DNA from: a virus
Length of the DNA: 36,656 nucleotides
IMG/VR virus record: IMGVR_UViG_3300022752_000192
Span: 1-36,656 of that record
Reading direction: 5' to 3' (one strand)
Each line of letters begins with the position of its first letter. Position 1 is the stretch's first letter. Both the position numbers and the translations under genes were made by a program. This document shows, piece by piece, positions 1 through 19,640 of this stretch. The notes under the pieces were generated by a model. That model worked only from the letters and a program-made list of their open reading frames with translations. It made no database searches and was not told the DNA's origin.

Positions 1-918
1 GCTGTCCCCGTTTTGATCGGGCTGAAGGTCTTCGATGATCGTGACCCCGTGAGGAGCGGAAGCGTATACCGAGTCCACGAACTTCTCAAACAGGTACGGC
101 TTCGTCTTCTGCTCCACGATGATACGCACAAACTTGCCGCGAGTGCGCTCTTCCTCTACCGACAGAGGAACAGTCTCGCTGGCATCGGTGTCATCGTAGC
201 GAATCTGCGTGAAGATCGTATGCGGATTCTTCACGAACTCCAACTGGCGGGTTTCGGTATCAAGAATGTGGAATCCCTTCTTGTCACCGTAGTCGTTCAT
301 GGTGATTTGGTACGGACATCCCAAGTAGTGGATGTTCTCGCGGGAGTGGCGGGTATGAAAATGTCCCGTGTACACAGCCTTGAAACGCTTGAACGGGTCT
401 GCGCTCATGCCTCCGTCAAACGGGGTTCCACGCAGCACCTGATAGCCGTTAAGTTCAAGGTGACCGCACAGTATCTCGGCAGGGGTTTCTGCGATGAACT
501 TCAGAGATTCGGCTTCGTTCTCCTTGTTGATCCACGGCAGCAGCGCAATCGGTGTACCGTCAAATTCAACAGTAGTCGGCTTGTTGTAAACAACGAACTT
601 ATCGGAGAACAGTTCCTGAAGCGAGTTTACCTCGCTCTTGTTCTTGAAGAAGATGTCGTGATTGCCGAGAATGCAGTGCATGACCGCACCGCTCTCCTCA
701 AGCCGCTTGATGAATCCGTTGCGAACCGCGTTCAGGGTGAGGAAGTTCACGAACTTGCGCCGATCAAGAAAGTCACCCATATGAATGATGGTGGTGATTC
801 CCTCCGCTTGGATGCGCGGAAAGAACACGCGATCAAAGAACCGCATGAAGTGTTCCATGAACACAGGGGAATCATTACGCGCACCAAAGTGCGTGTCCGT
901 CACGATGGCAATCTTCAC
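1..918 (-). CDS. 47: gp47-like recombination endonuclease subunit (Mre11/SbcD family), partial
   Basis: Nuclease subunit of the T4 gp46/gp47 (Rad50/Mre11-type) complex that resects DNA ends for recombination-dependent replication. The frame is open without a stop for 306 codons and runs off the left edge, so the C-terminus is missing (T4 gp47 is about 340 aa, so most of the protein is here). Metallophosphoesterase motifs appear in order: DTH at residues 8-10, GDFLD at 48-52, GNHD at 85-88, GH at 152-153 and GHFH at 185-188. These supply the metal-binding Asp, His and Asn residues. The start is a GTG overlapping the gp55 stop as GTGA, and no ATG occurs before residue 21. That overlap suggests translational coupling to gp55. 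gp46 would be expected just beyond the left edge. The family call is firm; the exact start is inferred. Confidence 0.93.
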   Translation of the reverse strand, partial: MKIAIVTDTHFGARNDSPVFMEHFMRFFDRVFFPRIQAEGITTIIHMGDFLDRRKFVNFLTLNAVRNGFIKRLEESGAVMHCILGNHDIFFKNKSEVNSLQELFSDKFVVYNKPTTVEFDGTPIALLPWINKENEAESLKFIAETPAEILCGHLELNGYQVLRGTPFDGGMSADPFKRFKAVYTGHFHTRHSRENIHYLGCPYQITMNDYGDKKGFHILDTETRQLEFVKNPHTIFTQIRYDDTDASETVPLSVEEERTRGKFVRIIVEQKTKPYLFEKFVDSVYASAPHGVTIIEDLQPDQNGDS

Positions 919-1502
919 TTCTTCTTGCCTTTCTTCGCAGGCTTTGGCTTTGCTGCCTTTCGCTTGGGCTTGCTGCTCTTTTTCGGAGCAGGCTCCGCGT
1001 CTACAGGTTCGGTTTTCTTTTCAAAGTTCTGTATGTCTGTCTCGGTAAGGAAAGTGGGCAATGTCTCAAAGTTGTCGCCAACCTTGAGATAGTTCTCGCG
1101 GAACCACTTCTTCATGGACGAATCCACATCGCTCATCTCAATCTTCTTCAGTTTGATGTACGCTTGCTTCTTTTCCTTCTGTATGCGGCGCAGGAACGCA
1201 TAGTAGATGATCTGCGTGAAGTACGAGAACGGATTCTTGGACTTGGACGGATCAAAGTTGTATGCGTACAGCAAACAGTTTTCTATGCCGTCCGAAATCA
1301 TCTCGTCACGATAGGGATAGTTGATGAAGTTAGGCTTGCGGGACAGGTTTTCCGCGATCTTCATAAAGCACTCACCGATGTAGTGCGTCACGGGAGGATG
1401 CTGTTCTCCTGTCTTGTCCGCAGCACGAACAAGCGTTTTCCACGCCCGCATCTCCTCAAAAAATTGCTGATTGTCTATGTAGTGGTCACTCTTCTTTGCC
1501 AT
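915..1502 (-). CDS. 55: gp55-like late-transcription sigma factor
   Basis: T4 gp55 is a minimal sigma-70-family factor that sends host RNA polymerase to late promoters (TATAAATA-type -10, no -35) and works with the sliding clamp. The 195-aa product shows the family core at residues 61-115: YPYRDEMISDGIENCL, an aromatic NPFSYFTQIIYYAF stretch and a basic RRIQKEKKQ end, matching sigma region 2. I chose the ATG at 1502 because AAGGA lies six bases upstream; an in-frame ATG at 1523 has no ribosome site. The last ~22 residues (174-195) are almost only Lys, Pro, Ala and Arg. In T4 the extreme C-terminus is a hydrophobic clamp-binding motif, and I do not see one at the end here. A sigma-70-like promoter sits directly upstream. 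The gene overlaps gp47 by four bases. Confidence 0.92.
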   Translation of the reverse strand: MAKKSDHYIDNQQFFEEMRAWKTLVRAADKTGEQHPPVTHYIGECFMKIAENLSRKPNFINYPYRDEMISDGIENCLLYAYNFDPSKSKNPFSYFTQIIYYAFLRRIQKEKKQAYIKLKKIEMSDVDSSMKKWFRENYLKVGDNFETLPTFLTETDIQNFEKKTEPVDAEPAPKKSSKPKRKAAKPKPAKKGKKK

Positions 1503-1521
1503 CACTGTCCTTTCGGCATAC

Positions 1522-1550
1522 ATTATGAATCAAATCTGCAAGGGTGTCAA
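1522..1550 (-). promoter_or_regulatory. Sigma-70-type promoter for gp55
   Basis: On the minus strand a perfect -35 TTGACA (1550-1545) is followed by a 17-base spacer and a -10 CATAAT (1527-1522; five of six bases match TATAAT). The -35 overlaps the stop codon of the LSm-like gene. The predicted start of transcription falls about 10-15 bases before the gp55 ATG at 1502, leaving room for the AAGGA ribosome site. The near-consensus hexamers at optimal spacing in an intergenic gap make this the best promoter in the window. Host sigma-70 use is inferred. Confidence 0.75.
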
Positions 1551-2428
1551 CCCTCTTCTTCATTTTTTGGTGGTTCGGGCTGCGGTGGCTCGGAGTCTGG
1601 CAGGTAGTCCTTCAAGTACGGCGACCAGTCTTCGTGGCTGTTGCCGTAGTTGGGCTTCTTTTTAAGTTCATCCAAAGGCTCAATCCACTCGTCTTTTGAA
1701 ATCTTTTCGCGCTTGTTCCGCTTTTTCTTTGGCTTCTGTGGCAAGGAGTCACGCTCATCGTTCATCATTTCTTCCATGAACTCCGTTGAGATAAAGTCTT
1801 GAACAGAGTCTTTCAAATAGTCAATGAACCCACTCTCAACCCAACTGCTGAGTATGTCACTTGGAATGCTTACGGAAAACAGTATTCCATCCCCGCGAGG
1901 AGGCATGGGCGGAAGTTTGGGCATCTGAAACGGAGACGGGAAAGGCATTCCCATAGGAAGTGTGTTTTCACCATTTCCCGTTGCGCCATGAACATCTTCT
2001 CGTGCCAACTGCTTGATCATTTCTTCCAGTTTTCGGTCCACATCATCCGAAAGCCGTTGCATCTCTTCCTCGCTCATCTCAAGAGGAAGTTCGGGAGGCA
2101 CAACCGCTGCGGGCTTTCCTGCATTTAAGTCATCGTGTTCTGTCTGCCGTGTGTACAGGCTGATCATGTCTGCATCAGGCGGCAACTCAACCACAATGAA
2201 GTCCAGTGGAATGTCTGCCTCTATTTCAGCAGAACTGCCCAGCCAGTCGGAGAAAAAAATCACATGACGCTTCACCCCGCTGTAGGGATCAGTCTGTATG
2301 TTGTTCATTATCCGCATGGGGCGCAAGAGTTTTATCTTGTCCTTGCTCTTGCCAGACACCTTGGCAATGATCTCTTCGCCGCTGCGTAATTTGAAGACTC
2401 TGAGTTCCGACTTCTTTTTTCTTCTCAT
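1547..2428 (-). CDS. LSm/Sm-like domain protein with acidic, proline-rich C-terminal extension
   Basis: The 293-aa product has a basic start (MRRKKK). Residues about 8-92 look like a small beta-barrel of Sm/LSm type: strand pattern VFKLRSGEEIIAKV, then KIKLLRPMRI, then HVIFFSDW and PLDFIVVELPP. Sm-like proteins of presumed cyanophage origin are known, but their role is not settled; RNA or nucleic-acid binding is the usual family function. The remaining 200 residues include a predicted helical, acidic stretch (118-145), a Met/Pro-rich linker (156-180, MPFPSPFQMPKLPPMPP) and a charged, proline-rich end. The start overlaps the UvsW stop as ATGA, with GGAG seven bases upstream, so it is coupled to uvsW. 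The gp55 promoter begins in its stop codon. No catalytic motif is visible; function is unknown. Confidence 0.7.
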   Translation of the reverse strand: MRRKKKSELRVFKLRSGEEIIAKVSGKSKDKIKLLRPMRIMNNIQTDPYSGVKRHVIFFSDWLGSSAEIEADIPLDFIVVELPPDADMISLYTRQTEHDDLNAGKPAAVVPPELPLEMSEEEMQRLSDDVDRKLEEMIKQLAREDVHGATGNGENTLPMGMPFPSPFQMPKLPPMPPRGDGILFSVSIPSDILSSWVESGFIDYLKDSVQDFISTEFMEEMMNDERDSLPQKPKKKRNKREKISKDEWIEPLDELKKKPNYGNSHEDWSPYLKDYLPDSEPPQPEPPKNEEEG

Positions 2429-3927
2429 GCGTCTTCTCCTAACTGTATCTTGACGAGTTTGTGTTCAAATCCCTCTGCCTCATACAGTTTCATACGCTCA
2501 TTCATGTGCCGAAGGGTGTGATTTTTCCAAGTTTTCCACGAAAGGTCATCGCCTAAATCGTAGAGTCGCGCAACCGTCTTGTCTTGTGATACCCGTAACT
2601 GTCTTCCGATGCTCTGTAGAACGCGAATGCGTGACTTGGATGGCGAAGCAAATATGATGTTGTGGAGGCGGCGGATAGAGATTCCCGTACTGAATGTACC
2701 GTATGAAGCAATGATGACGGCATCGGATTCACTCTCAACAATCTTGCGAATCTCCTCTCTGTCCGCAGCCTCTGTGCCACCATGCACGAAGAATACCTTA
2801 CGCTCTGAAGGAACGCAAGCCCTCACTAGACTATTTAGTACCTTTCCGTGGTCTTCAACGAATTGAAATAGTATGAGCGAGTTACCCTTCAAGCGATTGC
2901 ACATATCGGCAATAAACTTGTTCCGCCTCTGCGAACCAATGATCCACCGTATCTCGTCCTGATACTTGGCGCGTTTCACTGCCTGTCTGTCAAGATCGGG
3001 ATACGACAGCAGCAGGCAGTCAATCTTCAGGTCACTGAGAATGCGCTTCTCCATCAATTCCTTTGTCTTGGTGACCTCGTAAGCGCGTCCAAACAGTCCC
3101 TCTAGAACAAGCCTGTGGGTGTTTGTTCCGTCCAGTGTTCCTGTGGTGCCTACACGATACGGACAGTCCTTAAGTTTGGACATGATAGCAGTAAGGGACT
3201 TGGACTTAAACAAGTGGGCTTCGTCACCAATCACCGCAGAGAACTGCTGAAAGTACTTCTCTGGCTGCTTGAACAGGGACTGCCATGTGGAAACCACCAC
3301 CCGTTTGTCGGTGGTTTTGCTTTCTCCCGCCATGATCTTGTGGCAATTCGTGTCTACGCTCCACCCGTTCACGGACGAGTAGTCTGCGAAATCCGAAACC
3401 ATCTGCTCCACAAGAGAAACGGTAGGTACTACGATCAGCACCTTTTTGCTCTTGGGGATTTTGTCCAGATAGTACCGTATCAGTGCATAGATGATGAGAC
3501 TTTTTCCGCTACCTGTTGGCGACAGCAGCAAGCACCGTTCTTGCGTGAGTGCGTGATGCACGGCATTCACTTGGTGTTCATGTGCGTTCACCTTGCGTCC
3601 TGCCACGGTGACCTGCAAGAAGTTCTCAAGGAAACTCTTCACCGCTGCGGGTGTCATTCCCGATTCATTTCTAGTGGGAAGCGTCACCGTGTAGCCACGG
3701 TCATCCGCGAACTTGCGGATGTAGTCCGTCAGACCAGCGTAAACTAGTCCCGTGTGGACATTGAACAGTTTGATGTCTCCGTTCCACATCCGCGAACGAT
3801 ACGCTGGCATGAACTTGTAGCCCGGAACCTTGAATGTGAAATAGTCGGACAGTTCGTGTGCGATGCCGCGATTGCAGTCCACCCGCACATTCACCGAATC
3901 AACCATGCTCACATCTAGATCAAACAT
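2425..3927 (-). CDS. uvsW: UvsW-like RNA-DNA and DNA helicase (SF2)
   Basis: T4 UvsW is a RecG-like superfamily 2 helicase that unwinds R-loops and branched DNA, driving fork regression and the switch from origin- to recombination-dependent replication. The 500-aa product is almost the T4 length. Motifs appear in order: Walker A SPTGSGKS at residues 136-143, LIVVPTVSLVEQM (motif Ia) at 164-176, DEAH at 235-238, TGTLDG (motif III) at 262-267, and QSIGRQLR (motif VI) near residue 440. The N-terminal ~100 residues match the small UvsW DNA-binding region by position. The ATG follows the deaminase stop directly (TGAATG), and the stop overlaps the next gene, so these genes are translated as a coupled string. 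Confidence 0.93.
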   Translation of the reverse strand: MFDLDVSMVDSVNVRVDCNRGIAHELSDYFTFKVPGYKFMPAYRSRMWNGDIKLFNVHTGLVYAGLTDYIRKFADDRGYTVTLPTRNESGMTPAAVKSFLENFLQVTVAGRKVNAHEHQVNAVHHALTQERCLLLSPTGSGKSLIIYALIRYYLDKIPKSKKVLIVVPTVSLVEQMVSDFADYSSVNGWSVDTNCHKIMAGESKTTDKRVVVSTWQSLFKQPEKYFQQFSAVIGDEAHLFKSKSLTAIMSKLKDCPYRVGTTGTLDGTNTHRLVLEGLFGRAYEVTKTKELMEKRILSDLKIDCLLLSYPDLDRQAVKRAKYQDEIRWIIGSQRRNKFIADMCNRLKGNSLILFQFVEDHGKVLNSLVRACVPSERKVFFVHGGTEAADREEIRKIVESESDAVIIASYGTFSTGISIRRLHNIIFASPSKSRIRVLQSIGRQLRVSQDKTVARLYDLGDDLSWKTWKNHTLRHMNERMKLYEAEGFEHKLVKIQLGEDA

Positions 3928-4479
3928 TCAGAGCAAATCCTTGTTCGTGATCCACTTACCGTCAAATCGGAAAGAGGTTTGCATTCCAAAATCTCCCCTC
4001 CAACCAACAACAGAAACTCCACAGTTTTTTAGCATGGACAGCCCCTCCCATACACTCTTTTTCCACCTATCGGGTGTGCGTTCCACCACAGCAGAAAACG
4101 TGACCACTCTTTTAATCCCAAACTTTATCATGCATCGGGAACACTCGGCGCAAGTAGCCCAGTTACAGTACACAGTCATTCCAGCAACATTTACTCCGTT
4201 TTGAACCGCATCAAATATGAGATTTCTTTCTGCGTGTTCGGTGCAGAAATTCTTGTCTTCTTTGATTACAGGATACCCTGCTTGCACAAGGCGTTCCACT
4301 ACTGCATTACAACGCCCAAAAATAATTCCAGTGCCGTCGTCCACGACAAGCGAAGCACCAACCTGTGTGTTTGGATCTGTGCTTTTGCGAACGTATTTCA
4401 TGGTGTCTTGCAGATACATACGGTCAATCCACCATTTATCGGGATCGCTTTTCAGCAGAGAAGAAAAATCACTGTCCAT
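3928..4479 (-). CDS. cd: dCMP/cytidine deaminase family enzyme (T4 Cd-like)
   Basis: Zinc-dependent deaminase, most likely dCMP to dUMP, feeding dTMP synthesis during phage replication. In the 183-aa product the zinc and proton-transfer motif HAE lies at residues 82-84 and the zinc cysteines at 110 and 113 (TCAEC), followed by a third Cys at 116. The N-terminal DKWWIDRMY and DPNTQVGA stretches are typical of the dCMP deaminase branch, and length is close to T4 Cd (193 aa). The usual Pro before the first cysteine is Thr. I chose the ATG at 4479; a longer reading would need a TTG at 4500. It overlaps the uvsY stop by 11 bases. Specificity for dCMP rather than cytidine is inferred from family and context. 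Confidence 0.88.
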   Translation of the reverse strand: MDSDFSSLLKSDPDKWWIDRMYLQDTMKYVRKSTDPNTQVGASLVVDDGTGIIFGRCNAVVERLVQAGYPVIKEDKNFCTEHAERNLIFDAVQNGVNVAGMTVYCNWATCAECSRCMIKFGIKRVVTFSAVVERTPDRWKKSVWEGLSMLKNCGVSVVGWRGDFGMQTSFRFDGKWITNKDLL

Positions 4480-4903
4480 TTGTGAATCGTCTCCACTCAA
4501 TAGCGTTTCGGATTTTCCAGTGACGGGTGTTTAATTCTTTGATTACTTCTTCTAGCAGAGAAATCTTCTCTTTTTGATACACAATTTTTTGATTGCACTT
4601 GATAACGTCTGTATCAGAATCCAAATACAAATCCAGATCGTTTCTCAGTATCTTGAGCGCAAAAGGTTCCCAACCACGACGATTGAGTTCTTCTTGAGAC
4701 ATCTTGCCCGTATAGTACTCCCACTTTGCACGAAGCATAACACTGCGGTCGGCTTCCGCCTTTCGCAAAGACAGCCGTTCGTCCGTTAAAAAATTCAGAT
4801 ACTTTCCGTGTAACTGAGGAATTTTCAAAGACTCGGTGTCTAGTTCCATCTGATTCAGCACCATGTCTTTTTGTATTTCTGTTCGCAAATCGTCTAGTGT
4901 CAT
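4469..4903 (-). CDS. uvsY: UvsY-like recombination mediator
   Basis: T4 UvsY loads the UvsX recombinase onto single-stranded DNA covered by gp32. The 144-aa product matches UvsY in length (137 aa in T4) and layout: N-terminal TLDDLRTEIQKD, a central IPQLHGKY segment typical of cyanophage UvsY, the conserved RAKWEYYTGK (residues 58-67; T4 has an ARLDYYSGR equivalent), and a C-terminal NTRHWKIRNAIEWRRFTNG with the basic/aromatic end found in the family. GGAG lies six bases before the ATG. It is the first gene of the uvsY-cd-uvsW string. uvsX is not in the window. Confidence 0.88.
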   Translation of the reverse strand: MTLDDLRTEIQKDMVLNQMELDTESLKIPQLHGKYLNFLTDERLSLRKAEADRSVMLRAKWEYYTGKMSQEELNRRGWEPFALKILRNDLDLYLDSDTDVIKCNQKIVYQKEKISLLEEVIKELNTRHWKIRNAIEWRRFTNGQ

Positions 4904-4954: not shown

Positions 4955-5482
4955 TCACAGCACTTCTATATTGTAATATCTGTACGCAAAAGTGGCAGTG
5001 GCTTGAAACGGTTCAGGATCAACAACAGTTGAAGAAAAATCAATTGATGATAGTGTTCGTGGATACAAGCCTTCAAACGTTACATTGATTTTTGGATTTT
5101 TGGTGCTGTTCGTGACTAGTAGATTTGCGGTGGATAGATGGGTGTTGAGTGCGCGTACCTCTGAAAAGTTTTCCACATTTGTAACCGAACGCATCCAGTT
5201 GAATATCTCAAGCCAGTTTTTCATCTCTTCGTCCACTACGAATGTAATGCTCAACTCATCAAAATCCAATTTTGATGGAGCCTTGAGTGGCACAAACGGA
5301 GTAGGCATTTGGACTTCACTCATGGTTACGGTTGGCAGAGAAGCAGTCTGACAAAAATAACTGGTGGTTGGAAGTCTGGCAATCACAAACTTATAGTACG
5401 TTGGTAGTAGCGGATTTATTCGCTCTGGATACCGAGAGGTTATGGTTTCGGGGATGTCTGTGAAATCGTAGGGTATTGCCAT
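4955..5482 (-). CDS. Tail-tube-fold virion protein (gp19-like paralogue)
   Basis: The 175-aa product aligns without gaps to the tail tube protein gp19 of this same window: residues 40-99 here against 41-100 of gp19 show about 14 identities in 60 (shared C, P, P, K, P, F, SIT, D, M and W positions). SYFCQTASLP here corresponds to SFLCKAAQIP in gp19. I read it as a second tube-fold protein, possibly a tube initiator, terminator or head-tail connector piece. In cyanophages gp3 (tail completion) is often listed after gp23, so by position this could be that gene. The ATG at 5482 has no clear Shine-Dalgarno sequence. It lies between the terminator after the capsid gene and uvsY. Tube fold likely; exact role open. 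Confidence 0.65.
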   Translation of the reverse strand: MAIPYDFTDIPETITSRYPERINPLLPTYYKFVIARLPTTSYFCQTASLPTVTMSEVQMPTPFVPLKAPSKLDFDELSITFVVDEEMKNWLEIFNWMRSVTNVENFSEVRALNTHLSTANLLVTNSTKNPKINVTFEGLYPRTLSSIDFSSTVVDPEPFQATATFAYRYYNIEVL

Positions 5483-5499
5483 ACTAGTATGTAGAAACG

Positions 5500-5525
5500 A
5501 AAAGGGGAGGGGTTTCCCCCTCCCC
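5500..5525 (-). terminator. Strong intrinsic terminator after the major capsid gene
   Basis: On the minus strand a perfect 9-bp stem (GGGGAGGGG with CCCCTCCCC) closes a GAAA tetraloop and is followed directly by TTTT. It lies about 25 bases after the gp23 stop and just before the next ATG. This is the only textbook terminator in the window and should end most transcripts of the head operon. Confidence 0.88.
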
Positions 5526-5549
5526 CATCGTGCGGTTTAGTGCAGTCTA

Positions 5550-16333: not shown

Positions 16334-17203
16334 TTATATGTCCCAATCCACAGTTATGCCACCAGCAGACATACCCTCCGCGTATGTGGTTCCGCCTCCA
16401 GACTGTGCTTGGTATACCTTTGCATACGGACTGTAATCGTTTGCATTGGAACTTGCTCCGCTTGGTCCAGATATTCCAACAAACACATCTCCATACACAG
16501 ACTGTGCAAGCGTGTCTCCAGGATAGTAGGTGACTCCACCAACAAAATCGTCTCCAAACACCCCAGCATTCCACAATCCTGCTTGTGCCACGCGAATTTC
16601 TTTGTAGTTCTTCTTTGCACCAAACAGGTACGTCTTCATTGTGAAATTTAGAGTGAAAATAATAGAGCGACGAGTCTCAAAATCGCCCTCGTAGTCCTCT
16701 TCAGATGAAACCGAGTTCAGATAGATGGGAACATCCACCTTGCGGTTGATATCGTCAAAATTGATCGTGACCACGAACTCGGGGGTAAAAAATGGAAGTA
16801 TTTGCTCCACGATACGCAGACCGTCTTCCATGTTGCGAACGTAAATATAAAGCGCGAAATCAATATTGTACGGCACTTCTGAAAACGTGTAGTCCACCCC
16901 ACTCGGGTACGAAACCGAAGGGCGAACCATGTTTCGTGACAAACTGTTGCGCTTGCGGGCAGAATCGTAAACATATCCTGTGATCTCAAACGCCATGCGT
17001 GGCAGCACAATCTGATTGGGATTGGAGAAATTTGGTTCTCCTGAAAGACGCACCTTGTACTTTTCCTTTGGTGCATATGAAATAGGCACAAGCATGGTCT
17101 TCGTGCCGCTGCTCTCTGCCTTGTCAATGTAAATCTGATTGAACAGGGAGCCGAAGGCAACCACCATGCGGCGAATGGAACCGTTGTAGAAGTTTGTGAA
17201 CAT
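16334..17203 (-). CDS. 15: Tail sheath stabiliser / tail terminator gp15
   Basis: Caps the tail at the head-proximal end and joins it to the neck. The 289-aa product (T4: 272 aa) opens FTNFYNGSIRRMVVAFGSLF, the family's usual start, then MLVPISYAPKEKYKVRL, QIVLPRMAFEITGYVYDS, PYNIDFALYIYVRNMEDGL, QILPFFTPEFVVTIN, and RRSIIFTLNFTMKTYLFG. The last ~60 residues are Gly/Ser-rich. Its ATG shares a base with the stop of the homing endonuclease (TAATG); in relatives it would directly follow gp14, so this junction is probably shaped by the insertion. Confidence 0.92.
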   Translation of the reverse strand: MFTNFYNGSIRRMVVAFGSLFNQIYIDKAESSGTKTMLVPISYAPKEKYKVRLSGEPNFSNPNQIVLPRMAFEITGYVYDSARKRNSLSRNMVRPSVSYPSGVDYTFSEVPYNIDFALYIYVRNMEDGLRIVEQILPFFTPEFVVTINFDDINRKVDVPIYLNSVSSEEDYEGDFETRRSIIFTLNFTMKTYLFGAKKNYKEIRVAQAGLWNAGVFGDDFVGGVTYYPGDTLAQSVYGDVFVGISGPSGASSNANDYSPYAKVYQAQSGGGTTYAEGMSAGGITVDWDI

Positions 17204-17934
17204 TAGTAACCAACCTCATAACCTTCAGCGATAAGCGCATTCCACCTTTCGCTGTCTGGTAGTGCCATCTTTCTCGTTCCGTCTTTTTTCAGATATTTGA
17301 TGCCTCGCTTGGCATCTCGTATCTTTTGAATGTGAACAAGATTATTCATGGCATTGTTCTCTCTCATTTTCTGCTTTGTTTCATCGGTATGACATTTACC
17401 ATGCATACCGATTTTTTTCTCTTTCTGCAATCTCTTGGTATTGTCAGAAATCCTTTTCCTGTATTCCTCTGATCGCGGATTCTCTTTGTAGTATTCTTTC
17501 ATCGCAATAGAAGTAGATTTGCTTATCTTCTTCTTATGTTCTTCTGATAGAGTCTTTCCTCTGCTCCACTTACCAAAATCAGGATTTGCTTTATTTTTCT
17601 TGCTTATCTTCTGCCCAACCGAAAGTCTACTTTCCTTGTTGTGCCACCATAGATTGTTTGTTGTGGAAAAATTGAGGTTGTAGAATTTGTTTTTGCTCTT
17701 GCTCGCTGCCATCTCCAACCAACGATTTTCTACAATCAGTAACTGCTCTCGGTTTTCCGTTTTCTCTAATATTCTTCGCCTGAAGTCGGTTGATCTTCTT
17801 CTGTACGCATCTCTCATCCTATTGGAAGAGCAGATATATCCATCACATTCTGTACCCCAATGAGAACCAATGTAATACATTTTTCGTTTGCAGTCTTTCC
17901 AAATGTACACGAATCCATATTTTTGTGGTTCCAT
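17203..17934 (-). CDS. GIY-YIG homing endonuclease with NUMOD3-type repeats
   Basis: Free-standing homing endonuclease of the kind that spreads by cutting phage genomes lacking it. In the 243-aa product the GIY-YIG core is GFVYIW (residues 7-12) and YYIGSHWG (20-27); Arg residues at 39-48 and Glu69 (LIVENRWL) fit the catalytic Arg and metal-binding Glu. The rest is very Lys/Arg-rich and carries NUMOD3-like DNA-binding motifs: WSRGKTLSEEHKKKISKS (123-140), a related stretch at 154-170 and GMHGKCHTDETKQKM (176-190). I chose the ATG at 17934, with AGGAG seven bases upstream. It splits the gp14-gp15 pair. Two sampled 60-base lines are 38% G+C, against 53% for a line in gp14, a sign of transfer. 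Confidence 0.9.
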   Translation of the reverse strand: MEPQKYGFVYIWKDCKRKMYYIGSHWGTECDGYICSSNRMRDAYRRRSTDFRRRILEKTENREQLLIVENRWLEMAASKSKNKFYNLNFSTTNNLWWHNKESRLSVGQKISKKNKANPDFGKWSRGKTLSEEHKKKISKSTSIAMKEYYKENPRSEEYRKRISDNTKRLQKEKKIGMHGKCHTDETKQKMRENNAMNNLVHIQKIRDAKRGIKYLKKDGTRKMALPDSERWNALIAEGYEVGY

Positions 17935-17972
17935 GAACATACTCCTCAAGAATATGTATAAAACCGAGTGTT

Positions 17973-18857
17973 TCAGTAACCCCCCTCACTAAAAGGATCA
18001 CTCTCGGTGAAATCAAAGATGTCGTCACGCTTCTGCTCCAGTTCCAACTGCTCGTTGTCCTGCTGCTCCTGATGCGTGGCGCGAATAGTTGTGTCGTAGA
18101 TGCCAACGATGGGATATGACGCACCGCTAACAAGTCCCACAAGGATGTCTCCCACCTCAAACACACCTTCCTGCTTGTTGATTCGCATGGACTGGGATCC
18201 AGCCACAGGAACGGTGTACTCGTTGACGCGCCCGTAGGCGTGCTTGTCTGCGGTGGTTCCCGTGTAGACCTCTTCTCCCAGAATGTATGTTCCTGATCCG
18301 CTGCCGAGCGTGATGCCGATGAGGTAATCCGATGCAATGTTCATTACCGCGTCCAGTGCAGACTCGCCAGTGTCTATCTTCTCGCTGGAATACTTGAATG
18401 CTTCACACGAAAGTTTGAATGAATACCGATCACCGCCTGGATAGAACGGATTGTCGTGCTTCACAAACTTGATTTCAAACATGGTGTACGGATAGTCAAA
18501 GTAGATGATGTCGCCTTCGCGCGGGCGACCGTTCTTCTGAATCTCGGGATGGTGTCCCATCACATCCATGAACCGCTTACGGGACACGATGAATGTGGCG
18601 GAATCCTTTACATCAAGACCGAACCGCGACATCTCGGAGTCGCCTTCAAATCCATCCGCGTTCTCAAGGTACATCTCTATGCGGTTCGCATCCAAAAACT
18701 CTGAAACCTCTTCTCCGAGAATGAGGTCTTCCGTCACCTTCTCGCGTGGAATGTACACCATCTCGTGACCGTGTATCTTGATCGCCTCGGTCGTGAGTGA
18801 TTCAATAAGCGTTTGTTCGCCTTTCTTGTTCCTGCGAAAATACGGATTGACTGTCAT
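17973..18857 (-). CDS. 14: Neck protein gp14
   Basis: Head-completion protein that, with gp13, closes the portal and allows tail joining. The 294-aa product (T4: 256 aa) begins MTVNPYFRRNKKGEQTLIES and continues with IKIHGHEMVYIPRE, LILGEEVSEFLDA and a RIEMYLENADGFEGDSE stretch that is diagnostic of the family, then DIIYFDYPYTMFEIKFV and DRYSFKLSCEAFKYSSE. The C-terminus is polar and Gln/Glu-rich. It lies two bases after gp13. The homing endonuclease follows after a 38-base gap containing TATACATA, a one-mismatch match to the T4 late consensus. Confidence 0.92.
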   Translation of the reverse strand: MTVNPYFRRNKKGEQTLIESLTTEAIKIHGHEMVYIPREKVTEDLILGEEVSEFLDANRIEMYLENADGFEGDSEMSRFGLDVKDSATFIVSRKRFMDVMGHHPEIQKNGRPREGDIIYFDYPYTMFEIKFVKHDNPFYPGGDRYSFKLSCEAFKYSSEKIDTGESALDAVMNIASDYLIGITLGSGSGTYILGEEVYTGTTADKHAYGRVNEYTVPVAGSQSMRINKQEGVFEVGDILVGLVSGASYPIVGIYDTTIRATHQEQQDNEQLELEQKRDDIFDFTESDPFSEGGY

Positions 18858-18859
18858 GG

Positions 18860-19624
18860 TTATCCCGTAATGAAGTCGGGCGGCTCTTGATACTTCAACA
18901 GCACCTCTTCTTCAATGTTCTGTATTGCTGTGGTGGCTTCCTCGTACAGCCGCGCACCATTGAATGTAATATTGCCTGGCATGGGAATGCCTTCAAACTT
19001 GGACAGGTTTGCTCCCCACTGCTGCTTGATAAGGGCGGTAGCGTATTTCTTCAGCATGGGATCGTTCCACGCCTCGCTGTATTCCTCTGGATCAACCACC
19101 GCAAATCCCTCAACAAGAATGTACTGACCAGGCGCAAAATCCGTCCAGTTCATGTCCATCTGCAACTTGTTCTTGTACTTGTTGAACCGAATCTGCTTTT
19201 CGGGATCAAGCAGTTGCTGCAACATCTCAATATACTGCATGGTGGACACATAGTAGTTCATGTTCATGTTGCCTGTGCGGAGTCCGTAGAAGTCCGTCAG
19301 TGCCATCTGATAGCGAATGTTGAAAATGTTGTTGATCTGTAGGTTGAAGCCGATCTGAAACACCCGCGTGATGTTTGCAATCTGCGGTCCGTTTGGATCA
19401 AGAGAATTCGTGTCAATGTACTGATTGGTAATGTCCTGCTGCGTGATCTGATACTTCCAGTACTGTCGCTGCATACCAAGCGAGTTCCAGTCATTAAAGT
19501 ATTGGATAGCCTGATCAATGCGGTCTTCCACCTGGGAATCGTCCACATTGATCTCAATAACAGGCGCACCAAGAGCGCGTAGGCAGTATTCCTTGAACTC
19601 TTGTCGGGTTGTTGGTCTAGCCAT
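18860..19624 (-). CDS. 13: Neck protein gp13
   Basis: Head-completion neck protein acting with gp14. The 254-aa product starts MARPTTRQEFKEYCLRALG with APVIEINVDDSQVEDRIDQA next, the family's conserved opening, then YQITQQDITNQYI, YVSTMQYIEMLQQLL and C-terminal VDPEEYSEAWND, IKQQWGANLSKF and LPGNITFNG-type MPGNITFNGARLYEEA. I start at the ATG at 19624, with GGAGG five bases upstream. A longer reading would begin at a GTG that lies next to the Shine-Dalgarno sequence itself. A CTAAATAG motif lies 17 bases upstream, so gp13 may begin a late transcription unit. Confidence 0.94.
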   Translation of the reverse strand: MARPTTRQEFKEYCLRALGAPVIEINVDDSQVEDRIDQAIQYFNDWNSLGMQRQYWKYQITQQDITNQYIDTNSLDPNGPQIANITRVFQIGFNLQINNIFNIRYQMALTDFYGLRTGNMNMNYYVSTMQYIEMLQQLLDPEKQIRFNKYKNKLQMDMNWTDFAPGQYILVEGFAVVDPEEYSEAWNDPMLKKYATALIKQQWGANLSKFEGIPMPGNITFNGARLYEEATTAIQNIEEEVLLKYQEPPDFITG

Positions 19625-19640
19625 CTGTTCCTCCACTAAA

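Follow-up and report, generated by a model that had tools for sequence, protein, structure and literature searches.

The uvsW-LSm-gp55 locus

The window, a 36,656-nt stretch of DNA from an uncultured T4-type phage (IMG/VR record IMGVR_UViG_3300022752_000192, positions 1 to 36,656), carries an Sm-like (LSm) protein gene within a block that reads, along transcription, gp23, a gp3-like tail protein gene, uvsY, a dCMP deaminase gene, uvsW, LSm, gp55, and gp47 (Table 1). An earlier note on this DNA had described an ORF coupled to uvsW by an ATGA overlap and followed by gp55, and this layout is borne out by the coordinates, by the relatives, and by the phrog_234 match of the downstream gene. We conclude that the 293-aa ORF is a genuine gene rather than a chance ORF, because relatives were found (25 close ones in a first search, 74 distinct proteins overall), the 4-base overlap with uvsW is kept in 61 of about 71 distinct junctions among them, and dN/dS lies well below 1 (~0.03–0.15 in the LSm domain, 0.01–0.21 in the middle tail block, and 0.08–0.12 at the C terminus). 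For the downstream gp55, the start codon is at either 1523 or 1502, and the end of this gene overlaps gp47 at the stop codon.

Table 1. Features of the LSm gene and its neighbors in the window
Feature	Position	Strand	Description and basis
Sm-like (LSm) protein gene	1547..2428	-	293 aa, ATG to TGA; N-terminal predicted Sm fold plus ~195-aa tail
Predicted Sm/LSm-fold domain, residues 1–97	2138..2428	-	3BY7 superposition, profile match, alignments
Tail helix, residues ~120–146	1991..2071	-	Helix predicted in both models
Middle tail block, conserved, helical, residues ~181–222, ILFSVSIPSDILSSWVESGFIDYLKDSVQDF...	1763..1888	-	Conservation, pLDDT, dN/dS
C-terminal tail block, conserved, residues ~250–276, EP..ELKKKPNYGNSHEDWSPYLKDY	1601..1681	-	G, D, and W identical in all of 45 diverse tails
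ATGA overlap, uvsW stop/LSm start	2425..2428	-	Also in 61/~71 distinct relatives
uvsW (SF2 helicase), immediate upstream neighbor	2425..3927	-	phrog_16 E 1.1e-97, PF21241 UvsW_N
gp55 late sigma factor, immediate downstream neighbor	915..1523	-	phrog_234 E 1.5e-57
gp47 (SbcD-like), conserved neighbor, extends past contig end	1..918	-	phrog_100 E 1.4e-97
uvsY, conserved neighbor, two genes upstream of uvsW	4469..4903	-	phrog_231 E 6e-43, synteny

Across 108 loci encoding 74 distinct proteins, with some contigs represented repeatedly, essentially all relatives with sufficiently long contigs preserve the order gp3-uvsY-(deaminase)-uvsW-LSm-gp55-gp47. The same uvsW/gp55 slot is occupied by a short family member in S-RSM4, S-WAM2, S-SKS1, P-TIM40, Syn1, S-SM2, Syn9, and DSL-LC03; in S-SSM7, an inserted carbamoyltransferase gene separates the Sm-like gene from uvsW. 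Cyanophage GenBank records number uvsW, the Sm-like gene, and gp55 as T4-like GC 138, 139, and 140. Linkage to uvsW, as the earlier note had proposed to check, is thus upheld, among cyanophages as well as in the relatives studied here.

The dCMP deaminase gene (3928–4500, minus strand) lies between uvsY and uvsW and overlaps uvsY; most close relatives have it and the cyanophage block lacks it. Elsewhere in the window, a homing endonuclease gene (17203–17949, minus strand; phrog_314, E 2e-18) sits between the gp14-type neck and tail sheath stabilizer genes. A Stenotrophomonas Menderavirus (L226 4479–4904) and Xanthomonas phage X1 (L229 2998–3396) encode an unassigned 130–140 aa protein in the uvsW-gp55 slot; the layout is similar by eye, and an Sm-like identity for this protein is unsupported (hhalign probability 1.5%).

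Predicted fold and family membership

AlphaFold2 predicts five strands followed by a helix over residues 9–101, with pLDDT mostly 65–85. The predicted Sm/LSm domain (residues ~7–97) superposes on PDB 3BY7_C with Z 13.6 and 1.3 Å over 82 of 82 residues (Foldseek, VIA-align), matching the entire 3BY7 chain, and the next natural fold matches, spliceosomal and archaeal Sm/LSm subunits, fall far below at Z ~7. Three TIP60 entries, which are designed cages, also match by fold, and these contain the 3BY7 domain, given the sequence match in common. Homology to 3BY7 is detectable in sequence as well: a profile of family N-domains matches it at E 2.1e-4 (hmmsearch). The Sm fold on which the earlier note had staked its reading is upheld by both the superposition of the model and this profile match.

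3BY7 is a solved Sm/LSm-like protein from an ocean metagenome, reportedly the homopentamer ECX21941 of Das et al. 2009, of cyanophage origin. It differs from the window protein in its length, ~100 aa without a long tail. Closer counterparts in position are the phrog_471/PF16243 proteins of the Kyanoviridae (GC 139), which share the uvsW/gp55 slot and a homologous N-terminal domain but measure ~130–145 aa and lack the YGN..DWSP..KDY tail described below. Residues common to the window protein and the cyanophage orthologs include K13, L14, S16, G17, E18, E19, P37, W62, and Y92, and the window protein matches phrog_471 (E 2.4e-5), phrog_527 (E 3.7e-5), and phrog_431. The reference orthologs from S-RSM4, S-SKS1, and P-TIM40 exceed the cut-off of the Pfam model PF16243 (Sm_like). 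A Pfam scan does not list PF16243 for the window protein, so we regard the window lineage as far diverged; its relative L025 scores 13.7 bits against a cut-off of 29.4. The lineage falls outside the curated model and is not assigned to PF16243 itself. Given its predicted fold, profile homology, and slot, the window protein is, on this modeling, a tailed member of the wider phage Sm-like family (3BY7/PF16243/phrog_471).

A single-sequence PDB search with the window protein returned only a ubiquitin-conjugating enzyme at E 0.056, which we regard as a chance match. The "methylamine utilization" label attached to phrog_471 and the cyanophage orthologs has no support from the fold; the S-RSM4 ortholog (L027 5974–6372; NC_013085 63895–64293) carries this label, which is widely copied across the Sm-like family. 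No Hfq family match appeared in the Pfam and PHROG scans or among the fold matches listed, a result with which a relation is still compatible. Bacterial Hfq resembles the window protein in belonging to the Sm-fold family and in having an unstructured C-terminal tail, and it is reported in the T4 neck (PMC12270204). It differs in that no sequence match was found between the two, and the window protein is phage-encoded, with a far longer tail that bears conserved blocks.

A tail with two conserved blocks

The earlier note had described an acidic, proline-rich tail of about 200 residues. That composition holds for residues ~98–293 (net charge ~−16, computed on the near-identical protein L002), but the tail is not featureless: it contains a helix (~120–146), a helical conserved block (~181–222) whose core reaches pLDDT ~88–89, and, toward the C terminus, a YGN..DWSP..KDY block whose G, D, and W never vary among 45 diverse tails. 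Recognizable versions of the middle and C-terminal blocks are retained even in divergent relatives (L092–L098), and the linkers between blocks are proline-rich and poorly conserved. The tail is therefore real and under purifying selection, with two conserved blocks, a pattern that would be expected of a tether displaying docking segments. A docking motif common to other genes is rejected, in that the YGN..DWSP..KDY pattern, when sought in the other genes of the collected loci, was found in the LSm gene only. A PDB fold search with the tail alone gave no match, a result of little weight given the low confidence of the tail model.

A second Sm-like gene beside gp43 and uvsX

Each of five large relatives carries a further Sm-like gene, encoding ~109 residues. 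In every one of the five it has gp43 on one side and uvsX on the other (e.g., L138 6156–6485), and 3BY7 is closest to this branch: the short gp43-side protein matches the 3BY7 sequence at E 1.1e-5, nearer than the uvsW-side gene. The gp43-side and uvsW-side domains align with an hhalign probability of 95.6%. Among 77 loci, the short gene directly adjoins gp43 in 76; uvsX is the next known gene in 66 and lies slightly further on in three more of the window-like group. In cyanophages, one or two Sm-like genes occur just upstream of gp43. The window contig, a 36.7-kb fragment, includes the uvsW-side gene only.

On the basis of both placements, the Sm-like genes of these phages adjoin uvsW and gp43/uvsX, and the gp43-uvsX-side gene points to recombination/replication at least as strongly as to transcription. 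In one relative, L176, ~2 kb separates the gp43 match from the short Sm-like gene (5215–5532), perhaps through an insertion within or after gp43, and S-RSM4 carries a further phrog_431 Sm-like gene (L146 4128–4463) directly adjoining the tail assembly chaperone gene.

Sm-like genes and UvsW.1 do not co-occur in 22 records

T4 UvsW.1 (PF11637) is likewise a small protein whose gene lies immediately after uvsW. It has been proposed as the DNA-binding partner of UvsW, occurs in a single subgroup of the group 2 phages, and has an unrelated helical (trihelical) fold (Iyer et al., PMC7824862). UvsW.1 directly follows uvsW in the T4-type phage RB7 and in phiAS5, and no PF11637 match was found by Pfam scan in the window protein or in the window record. 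Across 22 records, 13 have Sm-like genes, three have UvsW.1, six have neither, and none has both. This exclusivity fits replacement, and it also fits a plain lineage difference. Because six records lack both, neither protein is obligatory for UvsW.

Candidate functions

Sm rings bind single-stranded nucleic acid. We tentatively favor a role for the LSm protein as a nucleic-acid-binding ring that works with the UvsWXY recombination/replication machinery and whose tail recruits partners. LSm subunits would assemble into a ring with affinity for single-stranded RNA, single-stranded DNA, or both; co-produced with UvsW, this ring would be active in the UvsWXY recombination-dependent replication pathway, where it might, for example, hold the strand that UvsW frees in opening R-loops or in regressing branched DNA, thereby preventing re-annealing. 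The two conserved tail blocks, one set per subunit around the ring, would recruit protein partners in the manner of SSB or Hfq tails. Since the cyanophage orthologs have no such tail, whatever the tail mediates cannot belong to the core function of the family. In phages that encode an LSm protein, the ring may take over the job proposed for UvsW.1 in T4. The UvsW of T4 is a late-expressed helicase that unwinds R-loops and processes branched DNA (PMC3016281). Co-production with UvsW, together with the sister gene at gp43/uvsX, makes recombination-dependent replication our first choice; linkage does not single out UvsW, since head, tail, and late-transcription genes share the neighborhood.

The earlier note had suggested an RNA-linked role, which is plausible, and its interpretation is partly supported overall. 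One form of such a role would be an Hfq-like post-transcriptional regulator, in which a phage Sm ring binds phage or host mRNAs and switches their stability or translation at the early-to-late shift, a function that would be of use in hosts whose own Hfq is a poor RNA binder. The predicted Sm fold is in keeping with this, as is the position of the gp43-side paralog, close to the translational repressor gene regA in S-RSM4 and S-WAM2. Marine myophage Sm/Lsm proteins have been listed among regulation genes (PMC7029224), and according to the title of a work cited in PMC6202907, RNA binding is altered in cyanobacterial Hfq homologues. Conserved placement nonetheless tracks recombination and replication genes more closely than regulators, and we consider a regulator of this kind somewhat unlikely.

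We judge it unlikely that the LSm protein is a late-transcription accessory that works with gp55, through antitermination or by bridging RNA polymerase and the clamp. The gp55 gene is next in nearly every relative, and the Sm-like transcription regulator Rof, which acts on Rho, offers a precedent (PMC11018626). The gp55 of this lineage also ends in a Lys-rich extension (…KKGKKK), which most close relatives retain and which is absent from gp55 of S-RSM4 and S-WAM2. Electrostatic pairing of this extension with the acidic LSm tail was attractive at first, given that neither feature is present in the two cyanophages used for comparison; however, in this lineage the charges of the two tails do not covary (rho 0.02, p 0.91, n = 39). 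Nor is the second Sm-like gene near transcription genes. Cyanobacteria are not known to have Rho, which makes Rho an unlikely target for the cyanophage orthologs.

The whole gp3-uvsY-uvsW-x-gp55-gp47 block is conserved, so that any gene within it would look linked, and the LSm gene could encode an Sm-like protein of unrelated role, kept in a late operon merely by slow rearrangement. Such a passenger is hard to square with the ATGA coupling that most relatives show, with the persistence of the gene in both the cyanophages and the window lineage, and with the separate association of its paralog with gp43/uvsX, and we regard it as quite unlikely. Very unlikely is an assembly factor that stands in for host Hfq, which in T4 adds another genome gate to the neck (gp13/gp14/Hfq): the LSm gene is grouped with recombination genes rather than neck genes, and a pentamer, as reported for 3BY7, would mismatch the six-fold gp14 ring. 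In its favor, genes for neck proteins of the gp13/gp14 type are present in the window (18860–19636 and 17973–18857), and Hfq hexamers occur in T4 neck complexes, with phage yield ~2-fold lower without Hfq (PMC12270204).

The fold, the family, and the uvsW-gp55 slot are already known, as is occurrence of the family in cyanomyophages and pelagimyophages (PMC7029224). The earlier note's claim of novelty is weakened accordingly, with both family and slot on record (3BY7, PF16243, phrog_471, GC 138/139/140). Searches of open-licence papers yielded no account of the tailed variant and its conserved blocks, of the paired uvsW/gp43-uvsX arrangement, or of the Sm-like/UvsW.1 non-overlap, and no text on what the phage Sm-like family does or function assigned to it; because the literature searched consisted of open-licence papers, description elsewhere is possible.

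Returning to the recombination-dependent replication reading, a bolder form of it, rather unlikely as a whole, is that two dedicated Sm-like rings, one on the UvsW side and one on the gp43/UvsX side, constitute an undescribed part of the T4-type recombination-dependent replication machine that replaces UvsW.1, and that the UvsW-side ring evolved in this lineage into a tailed hub tethering partners via two docking blocks. Marine T4-type phages commonly encode Sm-like proteins: a tblastn search with the S-RSM4 protein hit 414 phage records, each bearing the name of a cyanophage or marine virus. Their paired placement and alternation with UvsW.1 make it a testable proposition that Sm rings act in viral DNA recombination and the control of R-loops, and not as RNA regulators of the classical kind.
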